From the NCBI RefSeq assembly GCF_001713395.1, contig NZ_CP016452.1, positions 992,001-1,056,000 of the forward strand: DNA of 64,000 nt, in the 5' to 3' direction. Below are positions 19,351-37,464 of the stretch, piece after piece. Source of the DNA: Sinorhizobium sp. RAC02 (GTDB taxonomy: Bacteria > Pseudomonadota > Alphaproteobacteria > Rhizobiales > Rhizobiaceae). The translations under genes were made by a program, and so were the position numbers. Position 1 is the first letter of the stretch. Every line of letters starts with the position of its first letter. A model generated the notes under the pieces. It was not told the DNA's origin and did not search any database. It saw only the letters and a list, made by a program, of their open reading frames with translations.

Positions 19351-19941
19351 TCAAGGACGTGAGAATTCCGCCTCCATCTCTGCAATGTCCTGGAAGCGAT
19401 CGGCAATGCGGGCGTGAGGACGCCCGCCGTCTGCGGCTGCGATGGCGACGACGATTTCGTCCGGATGCGGGGCGTCGGCGATCTGGTAGTTCGCAGTCAG
19501 GAAATGGGAACGCTTGCCGTTCTCGCTCTTGTGCATCATGGGCAGGGAAAGCAGGGCGCCGGGCGCGTTGCGCGTGTTGGCGAATTCCAGGTAGTTGGTG
19601 CCGCCGATCGCATCGCGGAACGGATTGCCGAAGCGAAGCGTGTGGATCATCGCCGAGGCATGTTCGATTTCGCCATTGACGCCGACGGCGGCGGCTTTCC
19701 CGCAGGCTTCGATGGTCTCCGCCGGCATCTGCGCCAGCAGGCGACGGGTCATTTCCGTGCTGAGCGGCCCGGCAATGCGGATGATCTCCGGGCGGAGGTC
19801 CTCAACGAAGCCCCGGCCGGCCCAGGGGTTGCGGATGATGGCGGCGACGACAACGACATTGAACGGTCGCGGCGCGGCTTTGCCGCCTTCGATATGGGTC
19901 TCCTCGAGGAAGGTGCAGATCTTTCGGATGTCGAGGGCCAT
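19351..19941 (-). CDS. Amino acid synthesis family protein (DUF1185-like)
   Basis: A 196-residue protein of the family often named 'amino acid synthesis' (PF06684), of unknown reaction. Typical stretches are FNVVVVAAIIRNPWAGRGFV, GVNGEIEHASAMIHTLRFGNP and GTNYLEFANTR. The name is historical and says little about the reaction. It is divergent from the PucR-type regulator 74 bp away, so it probably belongs to the same catabolic island. The ATG at 19941 has GGTGGAAATG upstream. Confidence 0.85.
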   Translation of the reverse strand: MALDIRKICTFLEETHIEGGKAAPRPFNVVVVAAIIRNPWAGRGFVEDLRPEIIRIAGPLSTEMTRRLLAQMPAETIEACGKAAAVGVNGEIEHASAMIHTLRFGNPFRDAIGGTNYLEFANTRNAPGALLSLPMMHKSENGKRSHFLTANYQIADAPHPDEIVVAIAAADGGRPHARIADRFQDIAEMEAEFSRP

Positions 19942-20015
19942 GTCATTTCCACCGTCTGTTGAACTTGCCGCAACCTAGCGTGTGATCGCGCCTGGTCTTC
20001 CTAGTATCCGGAGGA

Positions 20016-21911
20016 GTGGAGCAGCATGTCATCCTCCGAAAACAAGTAGATTTCAGCGCCGCCCCGCCGCATTATCACCGCTCTTTAACGAGGATGCGCA
20101 GCGCGTTGGACCAGAAATCACGGATACTGTCGCTTCGCGATGTCGCGAGCCAGATCAACAGCGGCGGCGATCTGTCGACCGTGCTGCAGCACCTGATCGC
20201 GGCCGCCTGCCGGCACGCCAACTGGGCGCTCGGCTCCATCATGGGCATCGATGCGGCGCACGGCTATGCCCATGTTATCGTGCGGCATGATCCGACGCTC
20301 CTCCAGCGCGACCTGCCGGACCGCTGGGAACTCGCGACCAGCCCATCGCTCATCGCGCTCCAGCGCAACGAACCCGTCTATATTCGCGATGCGCGCGAGA
20401 GTGAAGAATTCCCAGGCTACCGCAAGGAGGCGTTCGAGCGCGATTACCGGACAGTGCTCGTCATGCCGATGGACTGCGCGGATGCGGAAGGCCGACCGAT
20501 GGTGCTGAGCGTCATCGCCCGCACGGTGACCGAGGTCACGGAGGACGACCTCGCCTTCCTCGGAACGATCATCCACCTCGGCGCGATCGCCGTCGAAAAA
20601 CAGCACCGCCTGGCGGCGGAAAAGCGCGGGTCGGAGCGGCTCGTCCGGGCGCTTGCGGCACATACCTCGCTGCTGGAGCACGTGCTCAGCGACGGTTCCG
20701 TCTCTTCGCTCGCCGCGATGGTGGGAAGACTGTTGCCCAACCCGCTCGTCGTCGTGGACTTCACCGTCAACCAGGTGATCGCCGGGCGCTCGCCGCTGGC
20801 GACGGATTTCGACGATGCCGCCTGGCAGGCGGCGGCGCCCACGACCTTTGCCCGTGTGCTCATCCGCGCGGCGCGGGAGGCGGTGGAACGCGGCAGCACC
20901 GAAACCACACCGATCTTCCTTGAGGACGGCGCGCGACGGCTGCGCGTCTCCGCCCGCGCCGAACCGCTGATGGTCGACCGCCAGCTGGTCGGGGCGCTGG
21001 TGATCTTCCCCTTCGCGGCTGCTGAAGGCGAGCTGGACCAGTTAATGCTGGACAGTGCGAAATTCGCACTCAGCGTCCAGATGATGCGCAGCTTCCTGCG
21101 TTTCCGCTTCGAGACGCGCACGCAAAGCGAGCTTTTCTTCGAGATCGTCGAGCGGCGCTGGCGGGATGCGGCCGATATTGGCCAGCGTGCCGCGCGGCTC
21201 GGGCTTGATCTGTCGTTGCCGCAGCAGATGATCGTGGTCGATTTCCCGGAGCGGGCAAAGGCTTTTGGCGGCGGTTCCATCGATGTGGAGCACACGCTTT
21301 CGCGCATCATGCAACAGGCCTCGATCGAGGCCGGACTCGTGGCGATCGATGGCGGCGTCGTCTGCCTCATCAAACATGAGGCTGGACACCGGCAGGAACG
21401 CACCACGAAGCTCATGCGCCGTATCGCCGAGGAGCTTGGCCGTTATCTCGGCGAGCCGCCGATCGTGGTTGCCGGAAGCCGTTGCAGCGGTCTCGATGAT
21501 TATGCCACGGCCTGGGAACGATGCAGCCGGATGATCCGCATCGGCCGTTCCTTCGGGTTGACGGGCGCGCTCTCCACGCAGGATTTCGGGCCGCTGCCCA
21601 TGCTTGTTTCCGCAGCCGACGTCGGCGACGTGCGCAGCTTCGTGCGCGATAGTGTCGGGGCGATCGCCGAGCACGACCGGGAGAACGGCACGCCCTATCT
21701 GGAAACACTTTCCACCTATCTGGAGGAAGGTTGCCGCAGCCAAGCCTGTGCGGACCGGCTCGGCCTTCACGTCACGACGCTGCGCTACCGGCTGGCGCGC
21801 ATTCAGGAACTCTTCGGCATCGACGTGGAAACGCCGGAACGACGCTTTTCCGTGGAACTTGCGCTTCGTCTCCACAGTGTCATCGACAATCATGCCTTCG
21901 GCGAGCGCTGA
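20016..21911 (+). CDS. PucR/CdaR-type transcriptional regulator with GAF domain
   Basis: Up to 631 residues. Residues about 45-200 are a GAF sensor (HLIAAACRHANWALGSIMG, then VLVMPMDCADAEGRPMVLSV). The C-terminal 60 residues are the PucR helix-turn-helix (YLEEGCRSQACADRLGLHVT, then TLRYRLARIQELFGIDVE). Such regulators control aromatic or purine catabolism. The start is uncertain: a GTG at 20016 abuts GGAGGA too closely, an ATG at 20094 follows ACGAGG too closely, and between them an out-of-frame ATG (20026) opens a 7-codon frame with good RBS spacing. It probably controls the operon starting at 22057. Confidence 0.88.
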   Translation: MEQHVILRKQVDFSAAPPHYHRSLTRMRSALDQKSRILSLRDVASQINSGGDLSTVLQHLIAAACRHANWALGSIMGIDAAHGYAHVIVRHDPTLLQRDLPDRWELATSPSLIALQRNEPVYIRDARESEEFPGYRKEAFERDYRTVLVMPMDCADAEGRPMVLSVIARTVTEVTEDDLAFLGTIIHLGAIAVEKQHRLAAEKRGSERLVRALAAHTSLLEHVLSDGSVSSLAAMVGRLLPNPLVVVDFTVNQVIAGRSPLATDFDDAAWQAAAPTTFARVLIRAAREAVERGSTETTPIFLEDGARRLRVSARAEPLMVDRQLVGALVIFPFAAAEGELDQLMLDSAKFALSVQMMRSFLRFRFETRTQSELFFEIVERRWRDAADIGQRAARLGLDLSLPQQMIVVDFPERAKAFGGGSIDVEHTLSRIMQQASIEAGLVAIDGGVVCLIKHEAGHRQERTTKLMRRIAEELGRYLGEPPIVVAGSRCSGLDDYATAWERCSRMIRIGRSFGLTGALSTQDFGPLPMLVSAADVGDVRSFVRDSVGAIAEHDRENGTPYLETLSTYLEEGCRSQACADRLGLHVTTLRYRLARIQELFGIDVETPERRFSVELALRLHSVIDNHAFGER

Positions 21912-22056
21912 ACGCGTAAAGGCCATTGCCGCCCCCTATTGCCTCTCCTCCGAACCGCAGCAGAACAACACCATCGTCTCCTCCGTTCAGCGGGAAGCAC
22001 CCGCCGCCCGCGCCGGGTAGCGTCCTCCCAACGAAATGAGGAGAGAGATTGCGGGC

Positions 22057-23049
22057 ATGGCGGATGAGGCGACAGCACAGGACGCACCGATCGACCCCGT
22101 CGCGCTTCGCCGCGCCTTCGGCACCTTCGTCACCGGCGTTACGGTCCTCACCACCTGCGAGGCCGACGGCACGCCGCGTGGCATGACGGCCAATTCCTTC
22201 ACCTCCGTTTCGCTAGATCCGCCGCTCCTGCTCGTCTGTGTCGCCAAATCGGCGTCCAGCTATGCCACCTTCACCGCGGCGAACTGTTTCGCAGTCAATA
22301 TCCTGCATGAAGGTCAGGTCGATGTCTCGGCGACCTTCGCCTCAAAGTCGCCGGACAAATTCCAATCGGTCAATCATGACCGGGTGCATACGGGCGCGCC
22401 CGTGTTGACGGACAGCCTGACCTGGTTCGATTGCAGCCTCACCAGTTCCGTCGATGCCGGCGATCATGCGATCCTGATCGGCCAGGTGCGCGCCTTTGGC
22501 ACCAGCCCGACAGCACCGCTCGGCTTCTGCCGAGGGCGCTATGCCAGCGTGAAGGACCCGCTGCCGGCAGGATGGCTTGCTTCGCACGGCATGATCATCG
22601 GCTATCTCATCGAGGCTGGCGACGGGTTGTTGCTGTGCTCGGACGGCAAAGGGGGGTGGGTGCTGCCCTCTGCGCGGCGGCGCAAGGCCGACCGCGAACT
22701 GGTGCTGGACGGCGGCGATGCGCTGCGCCTCGTGCCGGAGGAAACCTTCCTCTATTCCGTCTTCGACGTTGCCGACAGCGATCCCGGATATCTCGTCTAC
22801 CGGGCGCGACTGGCCGGGGAGGGTGCGCAGATCAGCCTGCCCGACACCTTGCGTTTCTTTCCCGTCGAGGACCTGCCTTACGACGCGATCGCCACCCACG
22901 AACTGCGCTCCATGCTGCGGCGCTACGTGCAGGAGCGCCAGGCCGGTCGTTTCGGCATCTACATGGATTCTGACGATGGCGGCCGCGTCGCGATGATCGA
23001 CGGGCAGGCTCGCGCCTGGCTCCAGGCCTCCCAAGACCAAGGACAATGA
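22057..23049 (+). CDS. Flavin reductase fused to a degenerate Nudix-like domain
   Basis: A 330-residue two-domain protein. Residues about 12-165 are an FMN-binding split-barrel flavin:NADH reductase (FGTFVTGVTVLTTCE, GMTANSFTSVSLDPPLLLVC, CFAVNILHE), the kind that feeds reduced flavin to monooxygenases. Residues about 175-300 look like a Nudix fold (GMIIGYLIEAGDGLLLCSD, GGWVLPSARR, then FFPVEDLPYDAI) but lack the catalytic REXXEE box. Start ATG 22057 has GAGGAGAGAG upstream, which overlaps and disfavours the earlier ATG at 22036. The likely partner is the luciferase-like monooxygenase at 24587. Confidence 0.85.
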   Translation: MADEATAQDAPIDPVALRRAFGTFVTGVTVLTTCEADGTPRGMTANSFTSVSLDPPLLLVCVAKSASSYATFTAANCFAVNILHEGQVDVSATFASKSPDKFQSVNHDRVHTGAPVLTDSLTWFDCSLTSSVDAGDHAILIGQVRAFGTSPTAPLGFCRGRYASVKDPLPAGWLASHGMIIGYLIEAGDGLLLCSDGKGGWVLPSARRRKADRELVLDGGDALRLVPEETFLYSVFDVADSDPGYLVYRARLAGEGAQISLPDTLRFFPVEDLPYDAIATHELRSMLRRYVQERQAGRFGIYMDSDDGGRVAMIDGQARAWLQASQDQGQ

Positions 23050-23050
23050 C

Positions 23051-24565
23051 ATGAAGACGACAGTCAGCACCATCGAAGATTCGCGCCAGCAGCTGTTCAT
23101 CGGCGGTGAATTCGTGGCACCAAAGGGCGGCAATTATATCCGGAGCTACGATCCGACGACGGGCGAGCCTTGGTACGAGTTCGCCGAAGCCGATGCGGAC
23201 GATGTGGCGGTCGCTGTCGCCGCCGCCAGCGCCGCGTTCCGCAATCCTGACTGGCGGCGCATGACGCAGACCGACCGCGGTGCTCTGCTGCGGCGCCTCG
23301 CCGAACTCGTCCGCGCCAATGCCGATGCGCTCGCCGAAATCGAGACGCGCGACAATGGCAAGCTTCTGAAAGAGACGCGCGCCCAGATGCGCGCCATGCC
23401 CGACAGCTACCACTATTTCGCAGGCATGGCCGACAAGCTGCAGGGCGACACGATCCCGATCAACCGGCTCGACACGCTGAACATCAACCTGCGCGAACCG
23501 TTCGGCGTCGTCGGCATGATCACGCCGTGGAATTCTCCGCTGATGCTTTTGACCGGCACGCTGGCGCCGTGCCTTGCCATCGGCAACACCGTCGTCATCA
23601 AGCCGTCCGAGCATGCCACGGCGTCCACGCTGGCACTTGCCGAACTGATCCACGAAGCGGGTTTCCCGGCGGGCGTGGTCAATGTGGTGACGGGCACCGG
23701 CCAGAGTGCAGGCGAAGCGCTGACCCGTCATCCAGGCGTTGCGAAATACGTCTTCACCGGCAGCACGGCGACCGGCCGGCGCATCGCCAGCAATGCAGCA
23801 CAGAACCTCGTTCCCTGCTCCATGGAGCTTGGTGGCAAGTCGCCTCACGTCGTTTTCGGCGACGTCGATATCGAGCATGCGGTCAATGGCGTCGTCTCCG
23901 GCGTCTTTGCCGCGGCGGGCCAGACCTGCGTTGCCGGCTCGCGCTGCTTCGTCGAGGCGAGCGTCTACGACAGGTTCATCGATGCACTCGTCGCCCGCAC
24001 GCAGCGTATCCGGGTGGGTCTGCCAACTGCCGAGGATACCGATGTCGGCCCGCTGGCGCTTGCCGACCAACTGTCGAAGGTCGCGGCCTATGTCGCCTCG
24101 GGGGTGAAGGAAGGTGCGAAAGTCGCCGTCGGCGGCGGGCGACCGCAGAAGGCCGATCTCGCGCCGGGCGGCTGGTATTTCGAGCCGACGGTCATGGTCG
24201 ATGCCCAAAACGACATGGCGTTCATGCGCGACGAACTCTTCGGACCCGTGGTGGGCGTCATGCCCTTCCGCGACGAGGCGGAGATGATCGAACTGGCCAA
24301 CGACACGCGTTACGGCCTCGCTTCCGGCATCTGGACGAAGGACATCGACCGGGCGCTGCGCTTTGCCAACCGCATCGAGGCGGGCACCGTCTGGATCAAC
24401 ACCTACCGCTCAGCCTCCTTCATGTCGGCCAATGGCGGCTTCAAGGAAAGCGGTTACGGCCGGCGCGGTGGCTTCGAGGTCATGCACGAGTTCTCGCGTC
24501 TGAAGAACGTCATCATCGACTATTCCGGCGCCATGCAGGACCCCTTCGTCATCCGCCTCAAATAA
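23051..24565 (+). CDS. NAD(P)-dependent aldehyde dehydrogenase
   Basis: A 504-residue ALDH-superfamily enzyme oxidising an aldehyde to a carboxylate in the cytosol. The Rossmann region MITPWNSPLMLLTGTLAPCL, the general base E259 in MELGGKSP and the nucleophile C293 in GQTCVAGSR are all intact. It lies 1 bp after the flavin reductase gene and 21 bp before the LLM monooxygenase, so it probably removes a semialdehyde formed after ring or side-chain cleavage. The substrate is unknown. Confidence 0.95.
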   Translation: MKTTVSTIEDSRQQLFIGGEFVAPKGGNYIRSYDPTTGEPWYEFAEADADDVAVAVAAASAAFRNPDWRRMTQTDRGALLRRLAELVRANADALAEIETRDNGKLLKETRAQMRAMPDSYHYFAGMADKLQGDTIPINRLDTLNINLREPFGVVGMITPWNSPLMLLTGTLAPCLAIGNTVVIKPSEHATASTLALAELIHEAGFPAGVVNVVTGTGQSAGEALTRHPGVAKYVFTGSTATGRRIASNAAQNLVPCSMELGGKSPHVVFGDVDIEHAVNGVVSGVFAAAGQTCVAGSRCFVEASVYDRFIDALVARTQRIRVGLPTAEDTDVGPLALADQLSKVAAYVASGVKEGAKVAVGGGRPQKADLAPGGWYFEPTVMVDAQNDMAFMRDELFGPVVGVMPFRDEAEMIELANDTRYGLASGIWTKDIDRALRFANRIEAGTVWINTYRSASFMSANGGFKESGYGRRGGFEVMHEFSRLKNVIIDYSGAMQDPFVIRLK

Positions 24566-24586: not shown

Positions 24587-25663
24587 ATGAAGTTCGCAGT
24601 CTCGCTCACGATGGAACGCTTCTCGCCGGATGTGCCGATGGCCACGGTGAAGAACAACCTCCTGACGCTGGCCCGCATGGCAGACGAGGGCGGTTTCGAG
24701 ATGCTCTGGACGGCGGAGCACCACACGCTCGAATGCACGATCTCGCCGAACCCGTTCCAGACGCTCGTCTGGCTGGCGCAGCACACGGACAATATCCGGC
24801 TCGGCACTTCGACGCTGGTCGCGCCGTATTGGAACCCGATCCGGCTCGCCGGCGAATCCGCGCTCTGCGACCACCTGACGAACGGCCGCCTGGAATTTGG
24901 CATCGCGCGCGGTTCCTACCAGTACGAATTCGACCGGATGGCCGGCGGCATGCCGCAGCAGGAGGGCGTCGCCTATCTGAAGGAGCTGGTGCCGGCGGTG
25001 AAGAAGCTGTGGGCCGGCGACTATGCCCATGACGGACACTACTGGAAGTTCCCGGTGACCGCCGCCGTGCCGAAACCGTTGCAGCAGCCGCACCCGCGCA
25101 TCTGGGTCGCCGCGCGCGATCCCGGTACCTTCGACTGGGCAATCGCCAACGGCGCCAGCATCCTTTCGACGCCGCTTTCCGCCCCGGCTGCGGAAATCCA
25201 GGTTCTTTCCGACAAGTTTCACCGCGCGGTGGCGGACCATCCGGAGGTGCCGCGTCCTCGTTTCATGATGCAGCGGCGCACCTGCGTCTACGATCGGCCG
25301 GACGGCTGGGAGAGGGCCGTGCAGCACAGCATGGACTATGGCCGCGCCTTCGAGAACCTGATGCAGAATGTCGGTACCGTGCAGGACGGTTTTCCGGAGG
25401 CCGTGCCTTATGAAGCGGTGCGGGGCAAGGAAAACTACAATCCGGAAAACATCCGCAAGAACCTGATGTTCGGCACGCCGGACGAGGTGATCGAGAAGCT
25501 GATGGTCTTCGAGGCGGCCGGTGTCGACCAATATTGCCTCGGCCTCACCTTCAACCTGCTCTTCGAACTGCAAAAGCGCACGATCGAGCTTTTCGTGAAG
25601 GAAGTCATGCCCGTCTTCGCCGCGCGCGAAAATGAGCGCAAACGGGCAGTTGCGGGGCGCTGA
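24587..25663 (+). CDS. Luciferase-like (LLM class) flavin-dependent monooxygenase
   Basis: A 358-residue TIM-barrel flavin-dependent oxygenase of the bacterial-luciferase superfamily. The start MKFAVSLTMERF, WTAEHHTLECTISPNPF and IRLGTSTLVAPYWNPIRLAG are typical; RLEFGIARGSYQYEF marks the substrate/flavin pocket. Such enzymes need reduced FMN from a reductase, and one is encoded two genes upstream. LLM monooxygenase plus flavin reductase plus aldehyde dehydrogenase is also the arrangement used for ring opening in bacterial pyridine degradation. The ATG at 24587 follows AAAGGCAGAACC. Confidence 0.92.
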   Translation: MKFAVSLTMERFSPDVPMATVKNNLLTLARMADEGGFEMLWTAEHHTLECTISPNPFQTLVWLAQHTDNIRLGTSTLVAPYWNPIRLAGESALCDHLTNGRLEFGIARGSYQYEFDRMAGGMPQQEGVAYLKELVPAVKKLWAGDYAHDGHYWKFPVTAAVPKPLQQPHPRIWVAARDPGTFDWAIANGASILSTPLSAPAAEIQVLSDKFHRAVADHPEVPRPRFMMQRRTCVYDRPDGWERAVQHSMDYGRAFENLMQNVGTVQDGFPEAVPYEAVRGKENYNPENIRKNLMFGTPDEVIEKLMVFEAAGVDQYCLGLTFNLLFELQKRTIELFVKEVMPVFAARENERKRAVAGR

Positions 25664-25665: not shown

Positions 25666-26478
25666 ATGGGCAAGGCGCTGGAGCACAGGGTCGGCGAGGT
25701 TACGCTCAACTATCGCATTGATGGCGACGGCGGCGAACCGCTCGTCTGCATCCATGGGGTCGGTTCCTATCTGGAGGCCTGGTCGGGCGTGGTGGAGCGG
25801 TTGAAGGACCGCTTCACGATCCTCACCTTCGATCTCAGGGGACACGGCCGGTCGAGCCGTATCAAGGGTCGCTACGAGATCGATGATTTTGTCGCCGAGA
25901 CTCTGGCACTTGCCGACAAGGCCGGTTTTTCGACCTTCAATCTCGCCGGTTTTTCGCTCGGCGGCCTGATCGCCCAGCGCCTCGCGTTGACGCATCTTCC
26001 GCGGCTGCGGCGGCTCGTGCTGCTCTCCACGGTCGCTGGCCGGACGCCGGAGGAGCGCGAACGCGTTCTGGCGCGGCTCGCGGCTTTGCAGGCCGGTACG
26101 CCATCCGACCACCACAATGCCTCGCTGTCCCGCTGGCTGACGGAAGGTTTCCAGGACGCGCACCCCGACACCATCGCCTGGCTTCGGGCGCGCGATGCGG
26201 AGAACGACCCGGATTGTTACACTTCCGCCTACCGGGTGCTCGCAGAAACGGATTTCGGCGGTTTTCTCGACCAGATCCGCTGCCCGACGCTGATTGCAAC
26301 CGGCGAGGACGATGTAGGCTCTAATCCGCGCATGGCCCGCTACATGCACGAGCGCATTCCCGGTTCGACGCTCGCCATCTTCCCCGGCCTGCGCCATTCC
26401 ATCCTGATCGAAGCCCCGGACGTCGTGGCCGACACCATGGCCACGTTCCTGACAAAGAAGGAGGCGGCCGATGGATGA
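25666..26478 (+). CDS. Alpha/beta hydrolase
   Basis: A 270-residue cytosolic hydrolase. The oxyanion region is VCIHGVGSY, the nucleophile S97 lies in GFSLGG, the acid is probably the Asp in ATGEDDVGSN and the catalytic His is in GLRHSILIEAP. It is similar in style to enol-lactone hydrolases (PcaD) and N-formylmaleamate deformylases (NicD). It starts 2 bp after the monooxygenase stop and overlaps the next gene by 8 bp. The exact bond cleaved is unknown. Confidence 0.92.
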   Translation: MGKALEHRVGEVTLNYRIDGDGGEPLVCIHGVGSYLEAWSGVVERLKDRFTILTFDLRGHGRSSRIKGRYEIDDFVAETLALADKAGFSTFNLAGFSLGGLIAQRLALTHLPRLRRLVLLSTVAGRTPEERERVLARLAALQAGTPSDHHNASLSRWLTEGFQDAHPDTIAWLRARDAENDPDCYTSAYRVLAETDFGGFLDQIRCPTLIATGEDDVGSNPRMARYMHERIPGSTLAIFPGLRHSILIEAPDVVADTMATFLTKKEAADG

Positions 26479-26860
26479 GGCGCTGCGCAAACAAGGCGAG
26501 GCCGTGCGGCGACGCGTGCTTGGCGACGACTATGTCGACCGCGCCACGAAAGGCGCCGATGCCTTCGCCGCGCCTCTGCAGGATCTCTTGAATGAGTATT
26601 GCTGGGGCATGGCCTGGACGGATGACGGCCTCGATCTCAAGCAGCGCAGTCTTCTCAACCTCGGCATGCTGGCGGCAAGCAACCGCATGCACGAATTCGG
26701 CCTTCATTTTCGCGGCGCGATCCGCAACGGCCTGACGGACAGGGAACTCCAGGCGGCGCTGGTGCAAATCGCGGTCTATTGCGGCGTGCCGGCCGGCGTC
26801 GAGGCTTTTCGCGTGGCGCGCGCGGTGCGGGCCGAGATGGCCGGGGAAGGACCGGCTTGA
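26471..26860 (+). CDS. Carboxymuconolactone-decarboxylase family protein
   Basis: A 129-residue all-helical protein with the CMD pattern EFGLHFRGAIRNGLTDREL and IAVYCGVPAGVEAFRVAR. The single Cys and lack of a CxxC pair point to the PcaC-like rather than the AhpD peroxidase branch. It is coupled by overlap to the hydrolase, so it probably acts on a product late in the same pathway. Confidence 0.88.
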   Translation: MDEALRKQGEAVRRRVLGDDYVDRATKGADAFAAPLQDLLNEYCWGMAWTDDGLDLKQRSLLNLGMLAASNRMHEFGLHFRGAIRNGLTDRELQAALVQIAVYCGVPAGVEAFRVARAVRAEMAGEGPA

Positions 26861-29672: not shown

Positions 29673-29696
29673 TTTCTTTACTCATGAGTAAAGAAA
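29673..29696. promoter_or_regulatory. Perfect 24-bp palindromic operator
   Basis: TTTCTTTACTCA at 29673-29684 is followed without a gap by its exact reverse complement. A TTGACA box at 29647-29652 lies just upstream, and the ring-cleavage gene starts at 29731. The size, symmetry and position fit an operator for a TetR dimer, most simply the TetR protein encoded four genes into the same operon (33406-34083). Confidence 0.7.
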
Positions 29697-29730: not shown

Positions 29731-30780
29731 ATGCTGCAGGAGCGCATTGAGGGGAAGTGGCTTGCCTGCTTCCGGCGCGTATTCGTGCTCAATGGAATTG
29801 GCCGCGCAACGCGCGTGGCGATCGTCGCGGAGACGCAGTCGCGGCCCGTGCTGGTCCAGCTTGCGGATATCGCTTGCCACGATCTCGGCGCGGACTATTG
29901 CATGATCACCATGCCGACGCCGCGGCAGACGGCGCCCGTGCCGGTCAAATCCACAGGCACCTCACTCGCCATCCAAGGCAACCGCGCGGCGATCGAGGCC
30001 ATGAAGCAGTGCGAGGTGATCGTCGACTGCACCGTGGAAGGCATGATCCATGCCGCCGAATGGCCGGAGATCGAGGCGGCCGGTGCACGCATCCTCGTGG
30101 TCTGCAACGAGCATCCGGAAATCCTCGAGCGTTGCGAACCCAAGGCCGAACTCGGCCCCAAGGTGGCGCTCGGCATCCAGATGCTGCGCGAGGCGAAGGA
30201 AATGCGCGTCACCTCGGCGGCCGGAACGGACCTCTTCATCGACCTTACGGATGCGCCCTGCGGCGGAACGCCGGGCTTCGGCACGACGCCGGGAGCCGTC
30301 GCGCACTGGCCGGGCGGCCTTTGCCTCGCATTCCCGGGGCCGGGCACCGTCAACGGACGCATCGTCATGGACGTCGGCGACATGAACCTGACCTTCAAGA
30401 ATTATCTGACCAGCCGCATCGATTTCACCGTCGAGAACGATTTCGTCAAGGAAATCAAAGGCGACGGATTGGATGCTGAACTGTTCCGCGACTACATGGA
30501 CGCCTGGGAGGACCCGTTGGCCTACGGGTTCTCGCATGTCGGCTGGGGCATGAACCCCGCTGCCCGCTGGGTGTCCGGCGCGCTCTACGACAAGCGCGAC
30601 ATGCAGGCCGTCGAGTTTCGCGCCTGGGCCGGCAATTTCCTCTGGTCGACAGGTGCCAACCAATATGCCGGCCGCTTCACCGAAGGGCATTTCGACCTGC
30701 CGATGCGCAAGTGCACGATTACGCTGGATGGCGTTGCCGTGGTGAGGGACGGCCGTCTCCAGGGCGACCTCGTTCTCTGA
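29731..30780 (+). CDS. NicX/PicD-type 2,5-dihydroxypyridine 5,6-dioxygenase-like protein
   Basis: A 349-residue protein resembling NicX, the mononuclear Fe(II) dioxygenase that opens 2,5-dihydroxypyridine to N-formylmaleamate. Segments shared with NicX as I recall it include MDVGDMNLTFKNYL, FRDYMDAWEDPLAYGFSHVG and GNFLWSTGAN. The three iron ligands of NicX have counterparts here: H269 (SHVGWG), H320 and D322 (GHFDLP). The first 60 residues diverge more, so the substrate may differ. The fold is related to M29 aminopeptidases, a possible misannotation. The ATG at 29731 follows GGGAGAGG. It is the first gene after the palindromic operator. Confidence 0.85.
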   Translation: MLQERIEGKWLACFRRVFVLNGIGRATRVAIVAETQSRPVLVQLADIACHDLGADYCMITMPTPRQTAPVPVKSTGTSLAIQGNRAAIEAMKQCEVIVDCTVEGMIHAAEWPEIEAAGARILVVCNEHPEILERCEPKAELGPKVALGIQMLREAKEMRVTSAAGTDLFIDLTDAPCGGTPGFGTTPGAVAHWPGGLCLAFPGPGTVNGRIVMDVGDMNLTFKNYLTSRIDFTVENDFVKEIKGDGLDAELFRDYMDAWEDPLAYGFSHVGWGMNPAARWVSGALYDKRDMQAVEFRAWAGNFLWSTGANQYAGRFTEGHFDLPMRKCTITLDGVAVVRDGRLQGDLVL

Positions 30781-30802: not shown

Positions 30803-32113
30803 ATGAGCGAACCTGCAGATTATTACGACCTTTCCCGTATCCGGCCCGACGTGCTGGCGGTTCTCACACGCATCAACGAACTCGGCCGCGAACGCTTTGC
30901 GCCGCGCGCCAAGGGAATAGACGACGAAGCGTCCTTTCCGGTCGAGAACTACAGGGACCTGGCCGCCGAGGGCTTTCTCACCCTGACGGTTCCCAAGGAG
31001 TTCGGCGGCCACGGCTTCAGCCTCGGCGAATATGCAATGGTCGGGGCGGAAATCGGCAAATATTGCGGTGCCACCGCACTCACCTTCAACATGCACAATT
31101 CCTCGATGATGTGGTCGCGGTTCATGTATGAGCTGCCCAATCTGACGGACGAGGACCGTGCCGCCTTCGCGCCGCTGCGCGAACGCCAGTTCCGTCGTGC
31201 CGTCAAGGAACAGGGCATCTATTCGCAGCCGATTTCCGAGGCCGGGCAGAACTGGACCTCCAAGCCGGCGCAGACCGCCTGCCGCAAGGTCGATGGTGGC
31301 TGGCGCATCAATGGCTTCAAGAAGTTCGCCTCGCTCGCCGGCTATTGCGACTACTATTCCATCGTCTGCACCGAGCATTTCGAGGGCATCGAGCCACGCC
31401 ACGAGGACACGATGATCTTCGTCGTGCACAAGGACGCGCCGGGCCTCTCGGTCACCGGCAGCTGGGATCCGCTCGGCATGCGCGGCACCAACAGCCGCGA
31501 CCTCGTGCTCAAGGATGTCTTCGTCACCGAGGATGACCTGATGATGCCGCGCGGCATCTTCATCAAGACCCTGCCGCACTGGCCGCACATGATGGCAACG
31601 CTATCGCCCACCTATATGGGTGTGGCGCAGGGCGCCTTCGATTTCACGGTCGCCTATTTGCGCGGCGAGGTGCCCGGCCAGCTGGCCGCTGACCGGCGCA
31701 TGTTCGGCACGAAGCGCATCACCGTCGGCAAGATGTACACCCAGCTCGCCGCGATGCGGGCACTGTGGTGGCAGGCTTTCATGGAGGCCCAGGGGTTTCC
31801 GACAAAGGCGCAGGTGCTGCGCATGTACGCCGCCCAGTACACTGTCATGGAAGGCGTGCAGGAGATCGCAGCGCTCGCCATCCGGACCTGCGGCGGCCAA
31901 TCCATGCTGAAAACCCTGCCGCTGGAACGCATGTATCGCGATAGTCGCTGCGGGGCGCTGATGTTGCCCTACACGTCCGAAATCATGGAGGACTACCTTT
32001 CCGTCCTCACGCTCTATGACACGGACGAACTCGACAAGGCGCCCGGCGACGAGGGCGGTGCGCGCTCCTCGCTGTGGCGGGGTACGGGCGGCACGCTCAA
32101 GGGGCTTCGCTGA
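30803..32113 (+). CDS. Acyl-CoA-dehydrogenase-like flavoprotein, possible monooxygenase
   Basis: A 436-residue ACAD-superfamily flavoprotein. The N-terminal helical part, the FAD strand region (GWRINGFKKFASLAGYCDYY) and the C-terminal helices (RTCGGQSMLKTLPLERMYRD) are clear. At the usual catalytic glutamate (YEGT in classical enzymes) it reads LPYT, so the base is missing. This argues against ordinary acyl-CoA dehydrogenation and fits better with the flavin-dependent monooxygenase branch (DszC/HsaA-like), which uses a flavin reductase; one is encoded five genes downstream. It sits 22 bp after the ring-cleavage gene. Confidence 0.85.
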   Translation: MSEPADYYDLSRIRPDVLAVLTRINELGRERFAPRAKGIDDEASFPVENYRDLAAEGFLTLTVPKEFGGHGFSLGEYAMVGAEIGKYCGATALTFNMHNSSMMWSRFMYELPNLTDEDRAAFAPLRERQFRRAVKEQGIYSQPISEAGQNWTSKPAQTACRKVDGGWRINGFKKFASLAGYCDYYSIVCTEHFEGIEPRHEDTMIFVVHKDAPGLSVTGSWDPLGMRGTNSRDLVLKDVFVTEDDLMMPRGIFIKTLPHWPHMMATLSPTYMGVAQGAFDFTVAYLRGEVPGQLAADRRMFGTKRITVGKMYTQLAAMRALWWQAFMEAQGFPTKAQVLRMYAAQYTVMEGVQEIAALAIRTCGGQSMLKTLPLERMYRDSRCGALMLPYTSEIMEDYLSVLTLYDTDELDKAPGDEGGARSSLWRGTGGTLKGLR

Positions 32114-32116: not shown

Positions 32117-33409
32117 ATGGCGACGGAGCAGGTTCACGTCATCGGGCATGTTGCGGCAGAACCTGCCGAGGTCTGGGCCGTTGTCGGCAATTTCTGCGGC
32201 GCCTGGCATCCGGCGATCGCGGAAATGCGCCTGGAGCGTGATGCGCGCGGCGCGCTCATCCGCGCCTTCACCGCGAAGGGTGAGGACACGCTGTATCGCG
32301 AGCAGCTCACCTACCGCTCCGACAGCGACCGGGTGCTCGCTTATACGCATCTGGAGGGTATTGCGGGCGCGGAACGCTACGATGCCCGACTACAGGTCTT
32401 TGCCGACGAAACGGGGGGCAGCCGCATCGAGTGGTCGGCACGGCTCTCCGCTTCCGCCGATCGCGCTCCGGCCATCGCCGCCGGCACGAAGGCGATCTTT
32501 GAGATGGACATAGCGGCTCTGGACGACATCGCCGGGACATCGGCCTCGGATGATATTCCCTCTGTCGAGCAGCCAGACGCCGCACTCGAAAGCGTCTTCA
32601 TCGCTGGCGAGCCGAAATTGGCGCTGACGGTCACGCCGCAAAGGCCGGGTCCGCTGGTACTTTTCCTGCACGGCATCGGCGGTGCGCGGACGAACTGGCT
32701 GGCCCAGCTCCACGCGGTCGCGCCGACCCTGCGGGCTGCGGCACTTGACCTGCGCGGCTACGGCGAGAGCCGGCTCGGCCCGTCACAAAGCACGGTGGAG
32801 GACTATTGCGACGATATCCGGCGTGTCGCCGAGGCGCTTGGCGCGACGCGCCTTGTGCTCTGCGGTCTCTCCTATGGATCCTGGATCGCTACGTCCTTCG
32901 CCATGCGTCATCCGGAAATGCTGGCGGGCCTCGTCCTGTCCGGCGGCTGCACCGGCATGTCTGAGGCCGAGGTGGCGGAGCGCGAGGCATTCCGAACGGC
33001 GCGCGAAGTTCCGCTCGATGCGGGCAAGACGCCGGCCGATTTTGCACCTGCGGTCGTGGATGTCCTGGCGGGTCCAAATGCGGGCGAGGCGGTGCGGCAG
33101 GCGCTGTTCACCTCCATGGCAGCCATTCCCGCTGCGACCTATCGCGATGCGCTCCATTGTTTCACCCACCCGCCGGAGCGTTTCGATTTCTCCCGGCTCA
33201 CCATGCCGGTATTGATGATGACGGGACGGTTCGACCGGCTTGCTGCCCCCGAGGAGATCCGCGGCGTTGCCAACCGGATCGCGGAAGTGGCGCCGCGCGC
33301 CTGTGTGCGTTTCGAGGTCATCGAGGACGCCGGGCATGTCTGCAATGTCGAGCGTCCCGGCGCCTATAACAGGGTGCTCGGCGAATTCCTGTCGGAGATC
33401 GCGCGATGA
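32117..33409 (+). CDS. Fusion of START-like (SRPBCC) domain and alpha/beta hydrolase
   Basis: A 430-residue fusion. Residues 1-145 form an SRPBCC/polyketide-cyclase-like domain (HVAAEPAEVWAVVGNFCGAW, RYDARLQVFADETGGSRIEW) with a hydrophobic ligand cavity. Residues about 165-430 are a complete alpha/beta hydrolase: oxyanion site FLHGIGGAR, nucleophile S252 in GLSYGS, acid Asp in TGRFDRLAAP and His in EDAGHVCNVERP. The hydrolase half is comparable to NicD-type N-formylmaleamate deformylases. It starts 3 bp after the ACAD-like gene and overlaps the TetR gene by 4 bp. Both domains are intact; no frame break at the join. Confidence 0.88.
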   Translation: MATEQVHVIGHVAAEPAEVWAVVGNFCGAWHPAIAEMRLERDARGALIRAFTAKGEDTLYREQLTYRSDSDRVLAYTHLEGIAGAERYDARLQVFADETGGSRIEWSARLSASADRAPAIAAGTKAIFEMDIAALDDIAGTSASDDIPSVEQPDAALESVFIAGEPKLALTVTPQRPGPLVLFLHGIGGARTNWLAQLHAVAPTLRAAALDLRGYGESRLGPSQSTVEDYCDDIRRVAEALGATRLVLCGLSYGSWIATSFAMRHPEMLAGLVLSGGCTGMSEAEVAEREAFRTAREVPLDAGKTPADFAPAVVDVLAGPNAGEAVRQALFTSMAAIPAATYRDALHCFTHPPERFDFSRLTMPVLMMTGRFDRLAAPEEIRGVANRIAEVAPRACVRFEVIEDAGHVCNVERPGAYNRVLGEFLSEIAR

Positions 33410-34083
33410 CCGCTCTACCGAAACGCCAGCAGAACCGCATTCTTCGCGAACGCCGCATCCTCGACGCCGCGCTCAAGATCTTCTCGGAGAAGGGTTTCGT
33501 CAGCGCCTCGATGGACGACATCGCGGCCGAGGCGGAGCTGACCAAGCCGACGCTCTACCAGTATTTTCCGTCGAAAGACGAGCTCTTCACCGCCATGATG
33601 ACCCAGGAACGGGACCACATGCTTGAATCCTTCGAGTATCCCTCCGCCTCGGGCATGGTGGCCGAGCTCTATGCCTTTTCGTGGCATTATGCCGATGTCG
33701 TGCTGCGACCGGACATGCTGAACCTCGCCCGGCTGATCATCGGTGAAGCGCAGCGCTTGCCCGATGTCGGCCGTGCCTATCAGGCGTCGGGTCCTGACCG
33801 GGTGCTCGCCGGCATGATCACCTATCTCGAACGGCAGCGCGGGGCCGGCCGGCTCGTCTTTGACGATGCCGAGCTCGCGGCAGAAGACCTCTGGGGCCTG
33901 ATCCTCTCGGCACCACGCAACAAGGCGCTGCACATTCCCGATGCCGTGCCCGACCGGGCGACCATCGAACGCTACATCCGCAACGGGCTCGGCGTGTTCC
34001 TGCGCGCCTATTCCACCGCTTCAGAAAAAGACCTCGCCGTCCTCTCATCCCTCAAGCCGCCGCCGGCCACCGAAACGGAGTGA
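33406..34083 (+). CDS. TetR-family transcriptional regulator
   Basis: A 225-residue regulator. Residues about 12-60 hold the TetR helix-turn-helix (ILDAALKIFSEKGFVSASMD, then DIAAEAELTKPTLYQYFPSK). The rest is a helical ligand and dimer domain of the AcrR/C-terminal type. It is embedded in the operon it probably controls, with a 4-bp overlap upstream and a GTG/ATG start of the next gene at its stop. Its likely operator is the 24-bp palindrome at 29673. Confidence 0.92.
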   Translation: MTALPKRQQNRILRERRILDAALKIFSEKGFVSASMDDIAAEAELTKPTLYQYFPSKDELFTAMMTQERDHMLESFEYPSASGMVAELYAFSWHYADVVLRPDMLNLARLIIGEAQRLPDVGRAYQASGPDRVLAGMITYLERQRGAGRLVFDDAELAAEDLWGLILSAPRNKALHIPDAVPDRATIERYIRNGLGVFLRAYSTASEKDLAVLSSLKPPPATETE

Positions 34084-34085
34084 CC

Positions 34086-35429
34086 ATGACCCTCGACGCC
34101 TACATCGCCGACCCGGAAAGCCGCTTCGCCACCGTTGCGATGACCGATACGAACGGCCTGCTTCGCGGCCAGATGGTGTCGGTCCGCTCGCTGGCCGGTA
34201 TAGCGCGCAGCGGCATGGGCATGTCTCCCGTCACGTTCGCGCTCGATCCGACCGATGTCGTCCTCAATATTCCCGGCGTCTCGGATGACACATCGGATTT
34301 CCACGACGATCCGCTGGTGCTGGACCCCTCCACCGTGCGCCGCCTGCCCTGGTCCAAGCCCGGCCACGACCTGCTGGTACTGTCCAACTATGGCGGTGCG
34401 ACTGCAGAACTTTGCCCGCGCTCGCTGCTGAAGCGCGTGCTGGCCCGCGCCGGGGAGGCGGGCTATGCGCCGCGTTACGGCATGGAGCTGGAATACACGC
34501 TGTTCGACGAGACGCCGGAAAGCGCGCGTGAAAAGGGCTATCGCAATCTCAAGACGGCGACGCTGCACAAGAGCCATGACCTCGTGCTCTACCAGGTGCA
34601 GCAGACGGAATGGTACGAGGCGCTGGCCGAGATCTGCGAACCACTGAAGATCGACCTCGCCAAGATGCACGAGGAAATCGGCGGTGGTTTCCTCGAAGCC
34701 TGCATCGCGGCGGGCACGGGGCTGGAACCTGCCGACCAGCTCGTCCTCCTGAAAAACTTCGTACGCGCACTCGCACAGCGCCAGGGCAAATGCGTCACCT
34801 TCATGCCGCGCTGGACGGAGACTGCCGACAGCCAGTCGATCCACCTTCATGTCAGCCTCATCGACGGGGAGGGCCGGAAGGTCTTCCATGATCCCGCCGG
34901 CAAGAACGGCATGTCGCAAACCTTCCGGCACTTCATCGGCGGTCTGCAACGCTACATCGGCGACATGACGCTGATCTTCCAGCCGACGGTGAATTCCTAC
35001 CGCCGCTTTGCGCCCGGTACCTTCGCGCCGCCCGGCCTGACCTGGGGTTTCGAGAACCGCACGACCTGCTTCCGCGTCGTCGGGCACGATGCGGGGTCGC
35101 TGCGCGTCGAAAATCGGTTGCCCGGCGCCGACACCAATCCCTATCTGACGGTCGCCGCGACCGTCGCGGCCGGTGTTGCCGGCATCATGGAGGGCATCGA
35201 GCCCGAGCCCGAAGTGATCGGCAACGGCTATGTGCAGGCGGGTGAGGGACCTGATTTCGCCCGTTCGATGCCCGAGGCAATCGGCCGGCTTCGGACCTCT
35301 GCTTTTGCCAAAGACTGGCTTGGCGAGCGCTTCGTCGAAGCCTTTGCCGCCAGCCGCCAGAGCCAGCATGACGAATTCTGCAAGAAAGTACCCGATGTAG
35401 AACTGCAACGCTTCTTTGACCTGGGGTAG
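34086..35429 (+). CDS. Glutamine-synthetase-like ligase (gamma-glutamyl-amide forming)
   Basis: A 447-residue member of the glutamine synthetase superfamily. Metal and substrate motifs are present: YGMELEYTLFD, EIGGGFLEACIA, SIHLHVSL, RRFAPGTFAPPGLTWGFENR and RVENRLPGADTNPYL. The gene context of catabolic enzymes and an APC permease resembles enzymes that attach glutamate to amines (PuuA, IpuC, TdnQ) rather than ammonium-assimilating GlnA. The ATG at 34086 is 2 bp after the TetR stop; a GTG at 34080 overlaps that stop. Confidence 0.88.
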   Translation: MTLDAYIADPESRFATVAMTDTNGLLRGQMVSVRSLAGIARSGMGMSPVTFALDPTDVVLNIPGVSDDTSDFHDDPLVLDPSTVRRLPWSKPGHDLLVLSNYGGATAELCPRSLLKRVLARAGEAGYAPRYGMELEYTLFDETPESAREKGYRNLKTATLHKSHDLVLYQVQQTEWYEALAEICEPLKIDLAKMHEEIGGGFLEACIAAGTGLEPADQLVLLKNFVRALAQRQGKCVTFMPRWTETADSQSIHLHVSLIDGEGRKVFHDPAGKNGMSQTFRHFIGGLQRYIGDMTLIFQPTVNSYRRFAPGTFAPPGLTWGFENRTTCFRVVGHDAGSLRVENRLPGADTNPYLTVAATVAAGVAGIMEGIEPEPEVIGNGYVQAGEGPDFARSMPEAIGRLRTSAFAKDWLGERFVEAFAASRQSQHDEFCKKVPDVELQRFFDLG

Positions 35430-35433
35430 TGCC

Positions 35434-35940
35434 ATGAAACCAGAGCTTCGCATGCAATTCCTCGAAGGCATGAGCCGTGCGGCGACGTTCGTCGCGGTGG
35501 TGACGACGGATGGCGAAGCGGGGCGCTTCGGCGTGACGATCAGCTCGCTCACCTCGGTTTCCGCCGATGGCGACCATCCCTCGCTGCTCGCGTGCTTACA
35601 CCACATGAGCCCGGTCGCCACGGCGATCCTGAAAAACCGCGCCTTCTGCGCCAATCTCCTGCATGAGGACCAGCATCCGGTGTCCGATCTCTTCGCCGGC
35701 CGGCTTTCGGCGGGCGAACATGCGGAGCGCTTCGAGCGCACGCCCTGGTCATCAGGAAAACTCGGGCAACCCGCACTGGAAGGCGCGACGGCTAGCTTCC
35801 AATGCCAGGTCGCAACCTCCGTGTTTTGGGAAACGCATCACATCATCATCGGGCGTGTCATGGACGTCCGCTTGTCGGAAAACCCGGCCTCTCTGCTCTA
35901 CGGCCACCGCGCCTATCACCGGGCCGTTCAACTGTCGTAG
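35434..35940 (+). CDS. Flavin reductase (FMN-binding split barrel)
   Basis: A 168-residue flavin:NAD(P)H oxidoreductase. Family motifs are FVAVVTTDGEAGRFGVTISS, ILKNRAFCANLLHEDQ and the end YGHRAYHRAV. It is a single-domain protein, unlike the fusion at 22057. It is the last gene of the NicX-type operon before the permease and would supply reduced flavin to the ACAD-like enzyme. The ATG at 35434 is 4 bp after the ligase stop. Confidence 0.92.
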   Translation: MKPELRMQFLEGMSRAATFVAVVTTDGEAGRFGVTISSLTSVSADGDHPSLLACLHHMSPVATAILKNRAFCANLLHEDQHPVSDLFAGRLSAGEHAERFERTPWSSGKLGQPALEGATASFQCQVATSVFWETHHIIIGRVMDVRLSENPASLLYGHRAYHRAVQLS

Positions 35941-36018
35941 CGCACAATAAAAACGAAAAGGGCTGTGGATGCCGGCGGGGTGAGCCGGCGAATTGGGGAA
36001 CGAAAACTGGAGAGACCA

Positions 36019-37464
36019 ATGACTGACGTGACAATCGCGGGGGCGAACCAACTCCGCAGAAATTCGCTGGGCCTGATCGCGGTGACCTTCATGGTGATCT
36101 CGGCCGCAGCACCGCTTACGGGCGTTGCCGGCGCCGTGCCGATTTCCTTCCTGCTCGGAAACGGCACCGGCATTCCGGCAACGTTTCTGTTGATGACGCT
36201 GATCATGCTGGCTTTTTCGGCTGGTTACGTGGCGATGTCGCGCCACGTAACCAATGCCGGCGCCTTCTACGCCTATGCGGCACGCGGCCTCGGCGGGCGC
36301 ATGGCCGGCGCCGTCGCCATCATCGCGCTGGTGGCCTATAACGCCATGCAGTTCGGCCTGATCGGCCTGCTGGGCGGCATTGCAAGCGGCGTCTTCTCCG
36401 GCTTCGGCATCGACCTGCCATGGTACCTGTGGAGCCTCATCGCCATCGCCCTCGTCGGTATCCTGGGCTACCGTCAGGTCGATCTCTCCGCCAAGGTCAT
36501 GATCGTGCTGGTCGTGCTCGAATATCTGATCGTGCTGCTGGTCGATTTCGCCATTCTGGCAAAGGGTGGGGCAGGTGGCCTCTCCTTCAATTTCTTCGAC
36601 ACGACAGCCATGTTCTCCGGTTCGCTCACCGCCGCCGTGCTGTTCTGCCTCGGCTCGTTCATCGGCTTCGAGGCGACGACAATCTATGCCGAGGAGGCGC
36701 GCGATCCGGAAAGGACCATTCCGCGTGCAACCTATCTGTCCGTGCTGATGATCGGCCTGTTCTTCGTCTTCACGACGTGGCTGATGATCGTCGGCGTCGG
36801 CGCCGACAAGCTCGTGTCGACGATTGGCGCGCTACCCGACCCGACATCGTTCTTCTTCGATCTTGCCGGCACCTATGTTGGCGGGCCGGTTCCGGCCATT
36901 GCCGGCCTGCTGCTCGTCTCGAGCCTGTTTGCCGCGATCAGCGCCTTCCACAACTACATCGCCCGCTACAGCTACGTGGCTGGCCGCGAAGGCTTGCTGC
37001 CATCCGCCTTCGGCCGCACCCACGATGCGCACCAGAGCCCGCATGTCGGGTCCGTCATGCAGACGGTGATGGCGCTTGCCGTGCTCGCGGTCTTCGCCGG
37101 CCTCGGCCTCGATCCGGTGCTCAACATGTTCACCTGGATCAGCCAGGTCGGCACGCTCGGCGTGCTCGGCATGATGACCATCACGTCGCTCTCCGTCATC
37201 GTCTTCTTCCGCAAGACGCCCGGCGCACATCCACCCCTGACGACGCTCGTCCTGCCGGCCGTGTCGGGCCTCATCATGGCGGCGTTGTTCGTCTATATCT
37301 TCATCAACTTCGGCGACCTCACCCAGACGGCTGGCGGCACGCTCGGCATCATCCTGCCGGCGCTGATCCCGGTTGCCGGCCTTATCGGTTTCGCGATGGC
37401 AAGCAGGCTCAAGGCCACGAACCCGGCTGCCTATGCCCGCATGGGACAGAACCGCGCCGGCTAG
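36019..37464 (+). CDS. APC-family amino acid/amine permease
   Basis: A 481-residue, 12-helix secondary transporter. It shows the APC N-terminal pattern (GLIAVTFMVISAAAPLTGVA, FLLGNGTGIPATFL), the loop FIGFEATTIYAEEARDPERT and HNYIARYSYVAGREGLLP. The start MTDVTIAG at 36019 follows CTGGAGAGA; the frame extends upstream without an RBS. It lies 78 bp after the flavin reductase and together with the ligase recalls PuuP-PuuA pairs. The substrate is unknown. Confidence 0.92.
   Translation: MTDVTIAGANQLRRNSLGLIAVTFMVISAAAPLTGVAGAVPISFLLGNGTGIPATFLLMTLIMLAFSAGYVAMSRHVTNAGAFYAYAARGLGGRMAGAVAIIALVAYNAMQFGLIGLLGGIASGVFSGFGIDLPWYLWSLIAIALVGILGYRQVDLSAKVMIVLVVLEYLIVLLVDFAILAKGGAGGLSFNFFDTTAMFSGSLTAAVLFCLGSFIGFEATTIYAEEARDPERTIPRATYLSVLMIGLFFVFTTWLMIVGVGADKLVSTIGALPDPTSFFFDLAGTYVGGPVPAIAGLLLVSSLFAAISAFHNYIARYSYVAGREGLLPSAFGRTHDAHQSPHVGSVMQTVMALAVLAVFAGLGLDPVLNMFTWISQVGTLGVLGMMTITSLSVIVFFRKTPGAHPPLTTLVLPAVSGLIMAALFVYIFINFGDLTQTAGGTLGIILPALIPVAGLIGFAMASRLKATNPAAYARMGQNRAG

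Follow-up and report, generated by a model that had tools for sequence, protein, structure and literature searches.

Neighbouring operons of Sinorhizobium sp. RAC02: a predicted paralogue of the trigonelline operon beside a candidate variant of an uncharacterised ring-cleavage module

In the genome of Sinorhizobium sp. RAC02 (G000; 6.63 Mb, 3 contigs), two operons lie end to end within the window analysed here, a stretch of 64,000 nucleotides (G000:C3:992001-1056000), which raises the question of whether they serve one pathway or two. Operon 1 (19351-29610 of the window) encodes an LLM-class flavin monooxygenase, and operon 2 (29647-37464) encodes a dioxygenase that resembles NicX. An initial annotation had read both as a single undescribed pathway for an N-heteroaromatic compound or aromatic amine. 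Its gene list was sound, since 19351-37464 does contain the genes that it named, in long open frames with family matches (Table 1), and each operon does look, by its enzyme families, catabolic for an N-containing (hetero)aromatic compound; it made no mention of the PF06684 gene on the minus strand (19351-19941), of the SRPBCC domain of the second hydrolase, or of the C-terminal extension of the reductase in operon 1. The explanation towards which we lean, if only slightly, is that two independent catabolic operons have been made neighbours by insertion or deletion, operon 1 being a paralogue of the trigonelline (tgn) operon and operon 2 a variant of a ring-cleavage module.

The distribution of the operons was examined in related genomes. 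Among 21 Shinella genomes, in which operon 1 was scored by its LLM protein at 93% identity or more, operon 1 was found in 7 and operon 2 in 6; both were found in 3 (hypergeometric P=0.30 for co-occurrence in at least 3 genomes), and only in the window genome were they adjacent. In the two other genomes with both operons (G013 and G015), these lie on different contigs, well away from the contig ends, and neither is within the stretch fetched around the other. Five more of 121 relatives (G019, G048, G095, G107 and G108) matched both queries at 31-50% identity, again on different contigs. Among plasmid records, the 30 listed for operon 1 each matched its DNA over 78% of the query or more (some operon 1 match was present in 338 records, many perhaps to single genes only), the same coverage was reached in 4 of the 5 records that matched operon 2, and no record was common to the two lists among the rows shown. 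Furthermore, G007 carries operon 2 at the same place without operon 1: its DNA is colinear with the window at 2634-12102, 19097-19261 and 29610-39902, with the left edge ending at 19236 in a finer comparison. Positions 11841-19198 of the window encode an AraC regulator and an iron/siderophore ABC transporter of the FecCD type; G007 lacks most of this block too (~12.1-19.1 kb), adjoining the gap left by operon 1.

Operon 2 also possesses an upstream region of its own, which is conserved in 8 orthologues and in which a TTGACA motif is invariant in all eight. A 24-bp palindrome is perfect in the window and less perfect in the other orthologues; by chance, the window should contain its 16-bp core 0.01 times when up to 3 mismatches are allowed. 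A consensus scan called no plus-strand promoter at TTGACA, the second hexamer being poor, and the promoter scan of the window gave no excess (4 found, 3.4 expected). Terminator-like sites were mildly in excess (19 found, 13.2 expected, standard deviation 3.7); none of those in the window scan lies between operons 1 and 2, so read-through from operon 1 into operon 2 is possible. Taken together, the distribution, the G007 site and the upstream region of operon 2 speak against one pathway across both operons, and this claim of the initial annotation was abandoned. The annotation had also named what would overturn it, namely separate occurrence in most genomes with a known, unrelated function for each operon; the operons do occur separately, and the functional part holds only partly, operon 1 being a tgn-type paralogue and operon 2 having no known function.

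The clue to operon 1 was the PF06684 gene, which belongs to the TgnF family and led us to liken the operon to the tgn pathway. According to the available excerpt of PMC7913881, TgnF of the trigonelline pathway of Acinetobacter baylyi is homologous to the DUF1185-family (PF06684) protein of that paper and stimulates succinate-semialdehyde oxidation by TgnE. The trigonelline ring is opened by the TgnA/TgnB oxygenase system (PMC8269262, excerpt), and TgnB is listed within a network of luciferase-like domains in a figure legend of PMC11354265. Operon 1 has the corresponding features: an LLM oxygenase with a flavin reductase partner, clustered with aldehyde dehydrogenase, alpha/beta hydrolase and PF06684 genes. 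BLAST identified a cluster on an A. junii plasmid (CP077416.1; L085) that holds in one stretch a PF06684 protein, an alpha/beta hydrolase, a long flavin reductase, an LLM protein, an aldehyde dehydrogenase, a succinate-semialdehyde-dehydrogenase-like aldehyde dehydrogenase and a carboxymuconolactone-decarboxylase-family (CMD) protein, together with a regulator, a transporter and a porin-like protein (the last three judged by eye, as L085 is unannotated). Six of these have counterparts in operon 1 (identities in Table 1). The CMD gene of operon 1, odd at first sight, therefore fits the tgn-type set, since the A. junii cluster has one too. The flavin reductase of operon 1, at 337 residues, has a long C-terminal part; the two tgn-type reductases compared are of 310 and 319 residues. 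Beside the A. junii cluster, L085:1453-8407 and 20909-23299 encode proteins that look, by eye and from weak matches, like formyl-tetrahydrofolate, sarcosine-oxidase or N-methylglutamate enzymes, perhaps for the methylamine released.

The window genome contains a second tgn-like cluster (G000:C3:1957000-1976000; L050) that is nearer to that of A. junii (PF06684 protein 76%, aldehyde dehydrogenase 72%, LLM protein 72%, hydrolase 50%, reductase 44%) and that also holds a NIPSNAP-family gene and a PotD-like (spermidine/putrescine-type) ABC transporter. Its LLM protein is 81% identical to one on pSymA of Sinorhizobium meliloti, ~10-14 kb from noeB and nodL; S. meliloti catabolises trigonelline. A maximum-likelihood tree was built from 40 LLM proteins, including 18 selected out of 122 listed; in it, the operon 1 type and the L050 type were split at a 100/100 branch of length 1.51. 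The operon 1 protein, in this one respect unlike tgn, falls outside the clade of Acinetobacter and Sinorhizobium enzymes, and the L050 protein falls inside it. The two LLM types coexist in the window genome, in R. etli CFN 42, on two plasmids (p42f and NC_007764), and in Shinella sp. WSC3-e, side by side; G011 and G018 likewise have a second LLM protein at 41%. In R. etli, a succinate-semialdehyde dehydrogenase is annotated near the operon 1-type cluster. Of 120 listed relatives of the operon 1 LLM protein, 6 bear the name 'trigonelline monooxygenase, oxygenase component'; neither these 120 best relatives nor the listed relatives of a Pseudomonas homologue include an entry named as Acinetobacter, many rows being nameless. 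A third type of tgn-like cluster was observed in L058 (G011:C50:38000-57900), with an LLM protein 71% identical to the window copy, a NIPSNAP-like gene (50%) and another transporter type; its genome also has an operon 1 LLM protein (94%) and a further one at 41%.

By sequence comparison, operon 1 is thus predicted to be a deep paralogue of the tgn operon (LLM protein 41%). Because its families match those of a tgn-type cluster, yet as a deep paralogue, it probably opens a related, and likely different, N-substituted pyridine by tgn-type chemistry. Plain pyridine degradation was considered and set aside, since tgn agrees better with the PF06684 gene and with the match to Acinetobacter, in a comparison that left the pyridine LLM enzyme itself outside.

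The dioxygenase of operon 2 matched no Pfam or NCBIfam family at E 0.001, and it aligned with solved NicX over residues 13-341 (E=3e-57), 117 of 329 positions being identical. The Fe ligands His265, Ser302, His318 and Asp320 are retained, as are Arg293, His105 and His189; Glu177 is replaced by Thr, and Val175 and Thr176 are both replaced by Gly. In NicX, Glu177 binds N1 and O1 of 2,5-dihydroxypyridine, and the mutants E177A and H189A retain 2.7 and 6.9% activity, respectively (PMC7910607, excerpt). All 50 aligned sequences keep the Fe ligands and Arg293; Glu177 is present in 9 of 12 rows on the NicX side (Gln in the other three) and in none of the 38 NicX-like rows. These two sides are split at 100/99 in a tree in which long branches meet at the split (a program warning), among them L084 and the L134/L139/L142 group; L081, L121 and L140 are outside its 50 rows. 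All eight canonical nic loci keep Glu177; they were chosen after their nic genes had been seen, so that their nicE and nicF counts reflect selection. The NicX-like clade was matched in 26 of 385 alphaproteobacterial genomes, including that of the window.

The initial annotation had stated that the classic companions of NicX are absent. This stood for NicE and NicF beside the NicX-like gene, neither of which is encoded in the operons, and in part for the genome, where a search for NicE (E 1e-10) returned a single weak match at 28%; NicF and molybdenum hydroxylases were outside the genome-wide search. With Glu177 lost and no NicE or NicF next door, operon 2 was rejected as a nicotinate route. 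A deep NicX-type branch was also observed in L093, on a Rhodococcus pyridinivorans plasmid, with Gln at position 177 and with a Rieske dioxygenase, an isochorismatase-family protein and an Asp/Glu racemase as neighbours; it likely represents another N-heteroaromatic route.

Operon 2 was next compared with the loci of other NicX-like genes. Outside the window type, 33 distinct NicX-like hits (9 plus 24 more) were found and 32 loci were fetched; G164, at a contig edge, was left out, and L121 is a 6.9-kb stub. Neighbours were counted within 7 kb at identity thresholds of 25-40%, set by family. An acyl-CoA-dehydrogenase-like (ACAD-like) protein was encoded in 26 of these sister loci, an alpha/beta hydrolase in 27 and an AMP-binding CoA ligase in 23, and a TRAP large permease (9), a flavin reductase (8), MarR (12) and P450 (3) were less frequent; a glutamine-synthetase-like (GS-like) protein, nicE, nicF and nicC were each found in 0 of 32. 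Matches below threshold were left out of the counts (nicE at 26% in L134; nicC at 29-30% in L135 and L136; CoA ligase at 26-31% in L130-L132 and L054), and the nicC match in L136 is part of a salicylyl-CoA-hydroxylase-like gene. This salicylyl-CoA-5-hydroxylase-like gene, above the NCBIfam cut-off in L136 and in the same gene cluster in L135 and L138, points to aryl-CoA chemistry in those loci. Seven more operons of the window type (five from Shinella, one each from Ensifer adhaerens and Aminobacter) all encode the ACAD-like, hydrolase, SRPBCC and GS-like proteins and the APC permease, and six have the same flavin reductase (Aminobacter has a different one upstream); none has the CoA ligase. 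In the window type, a GS-like ligase and an APC permease thus appear to stand where the sister module has a CoA ligase and, at some loci, a TRAP transporter. Neither the gene combination of operon 2 nor the sister module was described in the literature searched. These comparisons indicate an uncharacterised ring-cleavage module, of which operon 2 represents a variant. Other neighbours were seen at some loci: in L047 (Aminobacter aminovorans pAA02), the operon 2 orthologue is flanked by a gentisate/5-aminosalicylate-dioxygenase-like cupin, an FAH-family hydrolase, a nitrilase-like hydrolase, and OYE- and GcvT-like genes; M81-family metallopeptidase (MlrC) genes adjoin NicX-like genes at L130:3449-7551 and L142:10717-12177, and L130 has an MTTB-family gene.

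The pairing of a NicX-type enzyme with a ligase of the gamma-glutamyl-amine type, as seen by the initial annotation, was upheld, within operon 2. The GS-like protein keeps the metal ligands and the ATP- and glutamate-site arginines; Asp50, which we take to be an ammonia-site residue, is changed to Ser, and Glu327, presumably the Glu-flap residue, is changed to Phe (Pro and Tyr in PuuA). According to the excerpted text of PMC11335346, glutamyl-organic-amine synthases are marked by loss of Asp50' and of the Glu-flap residue, and a ring dioxygenase acts directly on a glutamylated arylamine. The protein therefore has features of a glutamyl-organic-amine synthase (GoaS), and ligase activity is predicted. 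In Sagittula stellata, genes for a glutamine amidotransferase and a P450 come after that of a homologue (55%), in the vicinity of ring-oxidation genes. The ACAD-like protein does not have the catalytic Glu, at what we take to be its position in the C-terminal motif, and with a flavin reductase gene nearby it is likely a two-component flavin monooxygenase.

Table 1. Features of operons 1 and 2 (positions in the window) and the matches on which their assignments rest.
Feature	Position	Strand	Match or remark
PF06684 (DUF1185/AA_synth) protein, TgnF family	19351..19941	-	Pfam 212 bits; 51% to A. junii tgn-type copy
PucR-type regulator with GAF domain	20016..21911	+	HTH_30, GGDEF_2, GAF_2
Flavin reductase with C-terminal extension, tgn-type	22036..23049	+	PF01613; 37% over 319 residues to A. 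junii copy
Aldehyde dehydrogenase, TgnC-like	23051..24565	+	PF00171; 45% to A. junii
LLM-class flavin monooxygenase, oxygenase component	24587..25663	+	PF00296; 41% to A. junii; separate clade, split 100/100
Alpha/beta hydrolase, TgnD-like, GFSLG nucleophile motif	25666..26478	+	PF00561; 31% to A. junii
CMD-family protein	26471..26860	+	PF02627; 45% to A. junii copy
ABC substrate-binding protein, polar amino acid type	27008..27841	+	PF00497
ABC permease	27899..28873	+	PF00528
ABC ATPase	28870..29610	+	ABC_tran; start set by 4-base overlap annotated in R. etli
TTGACA motif (29647-29652) and perfect 24-bp palindrome (29673-29696)	29647..29696	+	Candidate promoter/operator of operon 2
NicX-like non-haem Fe(II) ring-cleavage dioxygenase, Glu177 to Thr	29731..30780	+	PDB 7cn3 NicX, E=3e-57
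ACAD-like flavoprotein without acyl-CoA dehydrogenase catalytic Glu, likely flavin monooxygenase	30803..32113	+	PF02770/PF02771; motif LMLPYTSEI
SRPBCC domain fused to alpha/beta hydrolase (GLSYG)	32117..33409	+	PF10604 + PF00561
TetR-family regulator	33406..34083	+	PF00440 + PF14246
GS-like amine ligase (GoaS-like)	34080..35429	+	PF00120, 278 bits; D50 to S, E327 to F
Flavin reductase, candidate partner of ACAD-like protein	35434..35940	+	94% to Ensifer annotated flavin reductase (orthologue)
APC-family permease	35965..37464	+	PF13520

A scheme can be proposed for each operon. In operon 1, where the family matches are direct and the steps are modelled on tgn chemistry, a zwitterionic N-substituted pyridine would be imported by the ABC transporter, its ring opened by the LLM oxygenase with the flavin reductase and the product oxidised by the aldehyde dehydrogenase; the alpha/beta hydrolase would then split an N-formyl enamide to amine, formate, CO2 and succinate semialdehyde. 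In operon 2, the enzyme classes and the lost Glu are observed, and the substrate, the order of steps and the tagging are conjectural: an amine would enter through the APC permease and be gamma-glutamylated by the GS-like ligase, the ACAD-like flavoprotein and its flavin reductase would hydroxylate the tagged ring, the NicX-like dioxygenase (its pocket now without Glu177 and with small residues acquired) would cleave it, and the fission product would be hydrolysed by the SRPBCC/hydrolase fusion. This order of tagging, hydroxylation, cleavage and hydrolysis was drawn from the residue losses of the GS-like protein, the neighbours of its Sagittula homologue, the ACAD-like protein without Glu, and the precedent of the glutamylated arylamine (PMC11335346, excerpt). 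Substrates of the aniline, aminopyridine or anthranilate type may be considered; the mimosine route (PydA/PydB type) does not seem to fit operon 2.

Several points weigh against these proposals. The A. junii cluster was termed tgn-type by its gene set, not by assay. An ACAD-like gene is absent within 7 kb in 6 of the 32 NicX-like loci (L076, L121, which is the stub, L124, L134, L139 and L142). The lost flap residue is printed as Glu357 in the excerpt of PMC11335346, and position 357 is kept in the GS-like protein, in which E327 is lost. The GoaS match therefore rests on Asp50 and on taking E327 as the flap. Two glutamate-site neighbours are changed as well (N264 to D, G265 to S), and the nearest GS-like relatives outside the operon type (55%; Sagittula and Novosphingobium) showed no NicX-like gene within the DNA fetched around them. 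A tagged ring as the substrate of the NicX-like enzyme is no more than a guess.

Other explanations were weighed against that of two independent operons. A single pathway for one unusual N-heteroaromatic or aromatic amine, in which the LLM operon handles the product of the NicX operon or the reverse, might be supposed from the adjacency of the operons, on one strand save for the PF06684 gene, and from the 3 of 21 Shinella genomes that carry both; however, it is highly improbable, given that the operons are mostly found apart, that G013 and G015, which also carry the two, have them on separate contigs, that the P value for co-occurrence is 0.30, that G007 has operon 2 at the same place without operon 1, and that the conserved upstream region belongs to operon 2 itself. 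It is unlikely, if less so, that operon 1 is a further trigonelline operon and shares its substrate with the other tgn cluster of the genome: six enzyme families are common with the A. junii cluster and a source gives the name trigonelline monooxygenase to 6 of 120 listed LLM relatives, but the LLM identity is only 41%, the clades are split at 100/100 with a branch of 1.51, both LLM types are retained in G000, Shinella sp. WSC3-e and R. etli CFN 42, and the transporter and regulator types differ between the clusters.

For operon 2, a 2,5-dihydroxypyridine dioxygenase within a nicotinate or hydroxypyridine route, with maleamate handled elsewhere, would agree with the 117 of 329 positions identical to NicX and with the retained Fe ligands, His105 and His189; it is improbable in view of the Thr at the substrate contact Glu177, which all eight canonical loci keep, and of the genome having no close NicE. 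Alternatively, the GS-like enzyme would tag no amine and would instead re-assimilate the amine or ammonia released after ring opening. Alphaproteobacterial methylamine routes use GS-like ligases, and the sister module is without a GS-like gene within 7 kb in all 32 loci; set against this are the loss of the ammonia-site residues and the Sagittula homologue (55%), whose glutamine amidotransferase and P450 neighbours lie in a ring-oxidation region, and we regard re-assimilation as a possibility of some weight, though still on the doubtful side. Within the explanation by two independent operons, a more specific version is tentative and itself rather unlikely, namely that the gamma-glutamyl tag replaces the CoA thioester expected for the sister module, so that an arylamine or aminopyridine would be glutamylated, hydroxylated in its tagged form by the ACAD-type enzyme and cleaved by a NicX-type enzyme remodelled to accommodate that form, and that operon 1 separately opens, by tgn chemistry, a pyridinium other than trigonelline.

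One puzzling locus is thus resolved into two testable pathways. Operon 1, most of which is carried by at least 30 plasmid records, suggests that the tgn type extends to a larger family of paralogous operons among rhizobia and other soil bacteria, and the name 'trigonelline monooxygenase' may therefore be wrong for the LLM clade of operon 1. Similarly, the NicX-like clade is broad and has lost a substrate contact, and annotating its members as 2,5-dihydroxypyridine dioxygenases is unwarranted without a test. That a GS-like ligase takes the place of the CoA ligase suggests a new way of activating aromatic amines.

Four known systems come closest to the two operons. The tgn cluster of Acinetobacter (A. 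junii as compared here; also described in A. baylyi ADP1) shares with operon 1 the LLM protein, the long flavin reductase, the aldehyde dehydrogenase, the alpha/beta hydrolase, the PF06684 protein and the CMD protein. However, the proteins of operon 1 are just 31-51% identical, its regulator is of the PucR type where A. junii has a GntR-like one (by eye), its transporter is of the polar-amino-acid ABC type, and it is without the succinate-semialdehyde-dehydrogenase-like gene, several similar genes being present in the genome (best 57%). Operon 2 resembles the nicotinate operon nicCXDFE in its M29-type Fe(II) ring-cleavage enzyme and alpha/beta hydrolase, and differs from it in having no adjacent NicC, NicE or NicF, in the separate clade of its NicX-like protein and in the loss of Glu177. 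With GoaS (NpaA1, AtdA1, PuuA), its ligase shares the loss of Asp50 and E327 and the retention of the metal ligands and of most ATP and glutamate residues; it is 28% identical to E. coli PuuA and is coupled to NicX-like and ACAD-like proteins, not to a Rieske dioxygenase or an amine oxidase. A fourth system is the alphaproteobacterial sister module of NicX-like, hydrolase, ACAD-like and CoA ligase genes, with which operon 2 has in common the NicX-like clade, the ACAD-like protein and the hydrolase, and from which it is set apart by a GS-like ligase and an APC permease in place of the CoA ligase and the TRAP transporter (9 of 32 loci), and by the fusion of an SRPBCC domain to its hydrolase.

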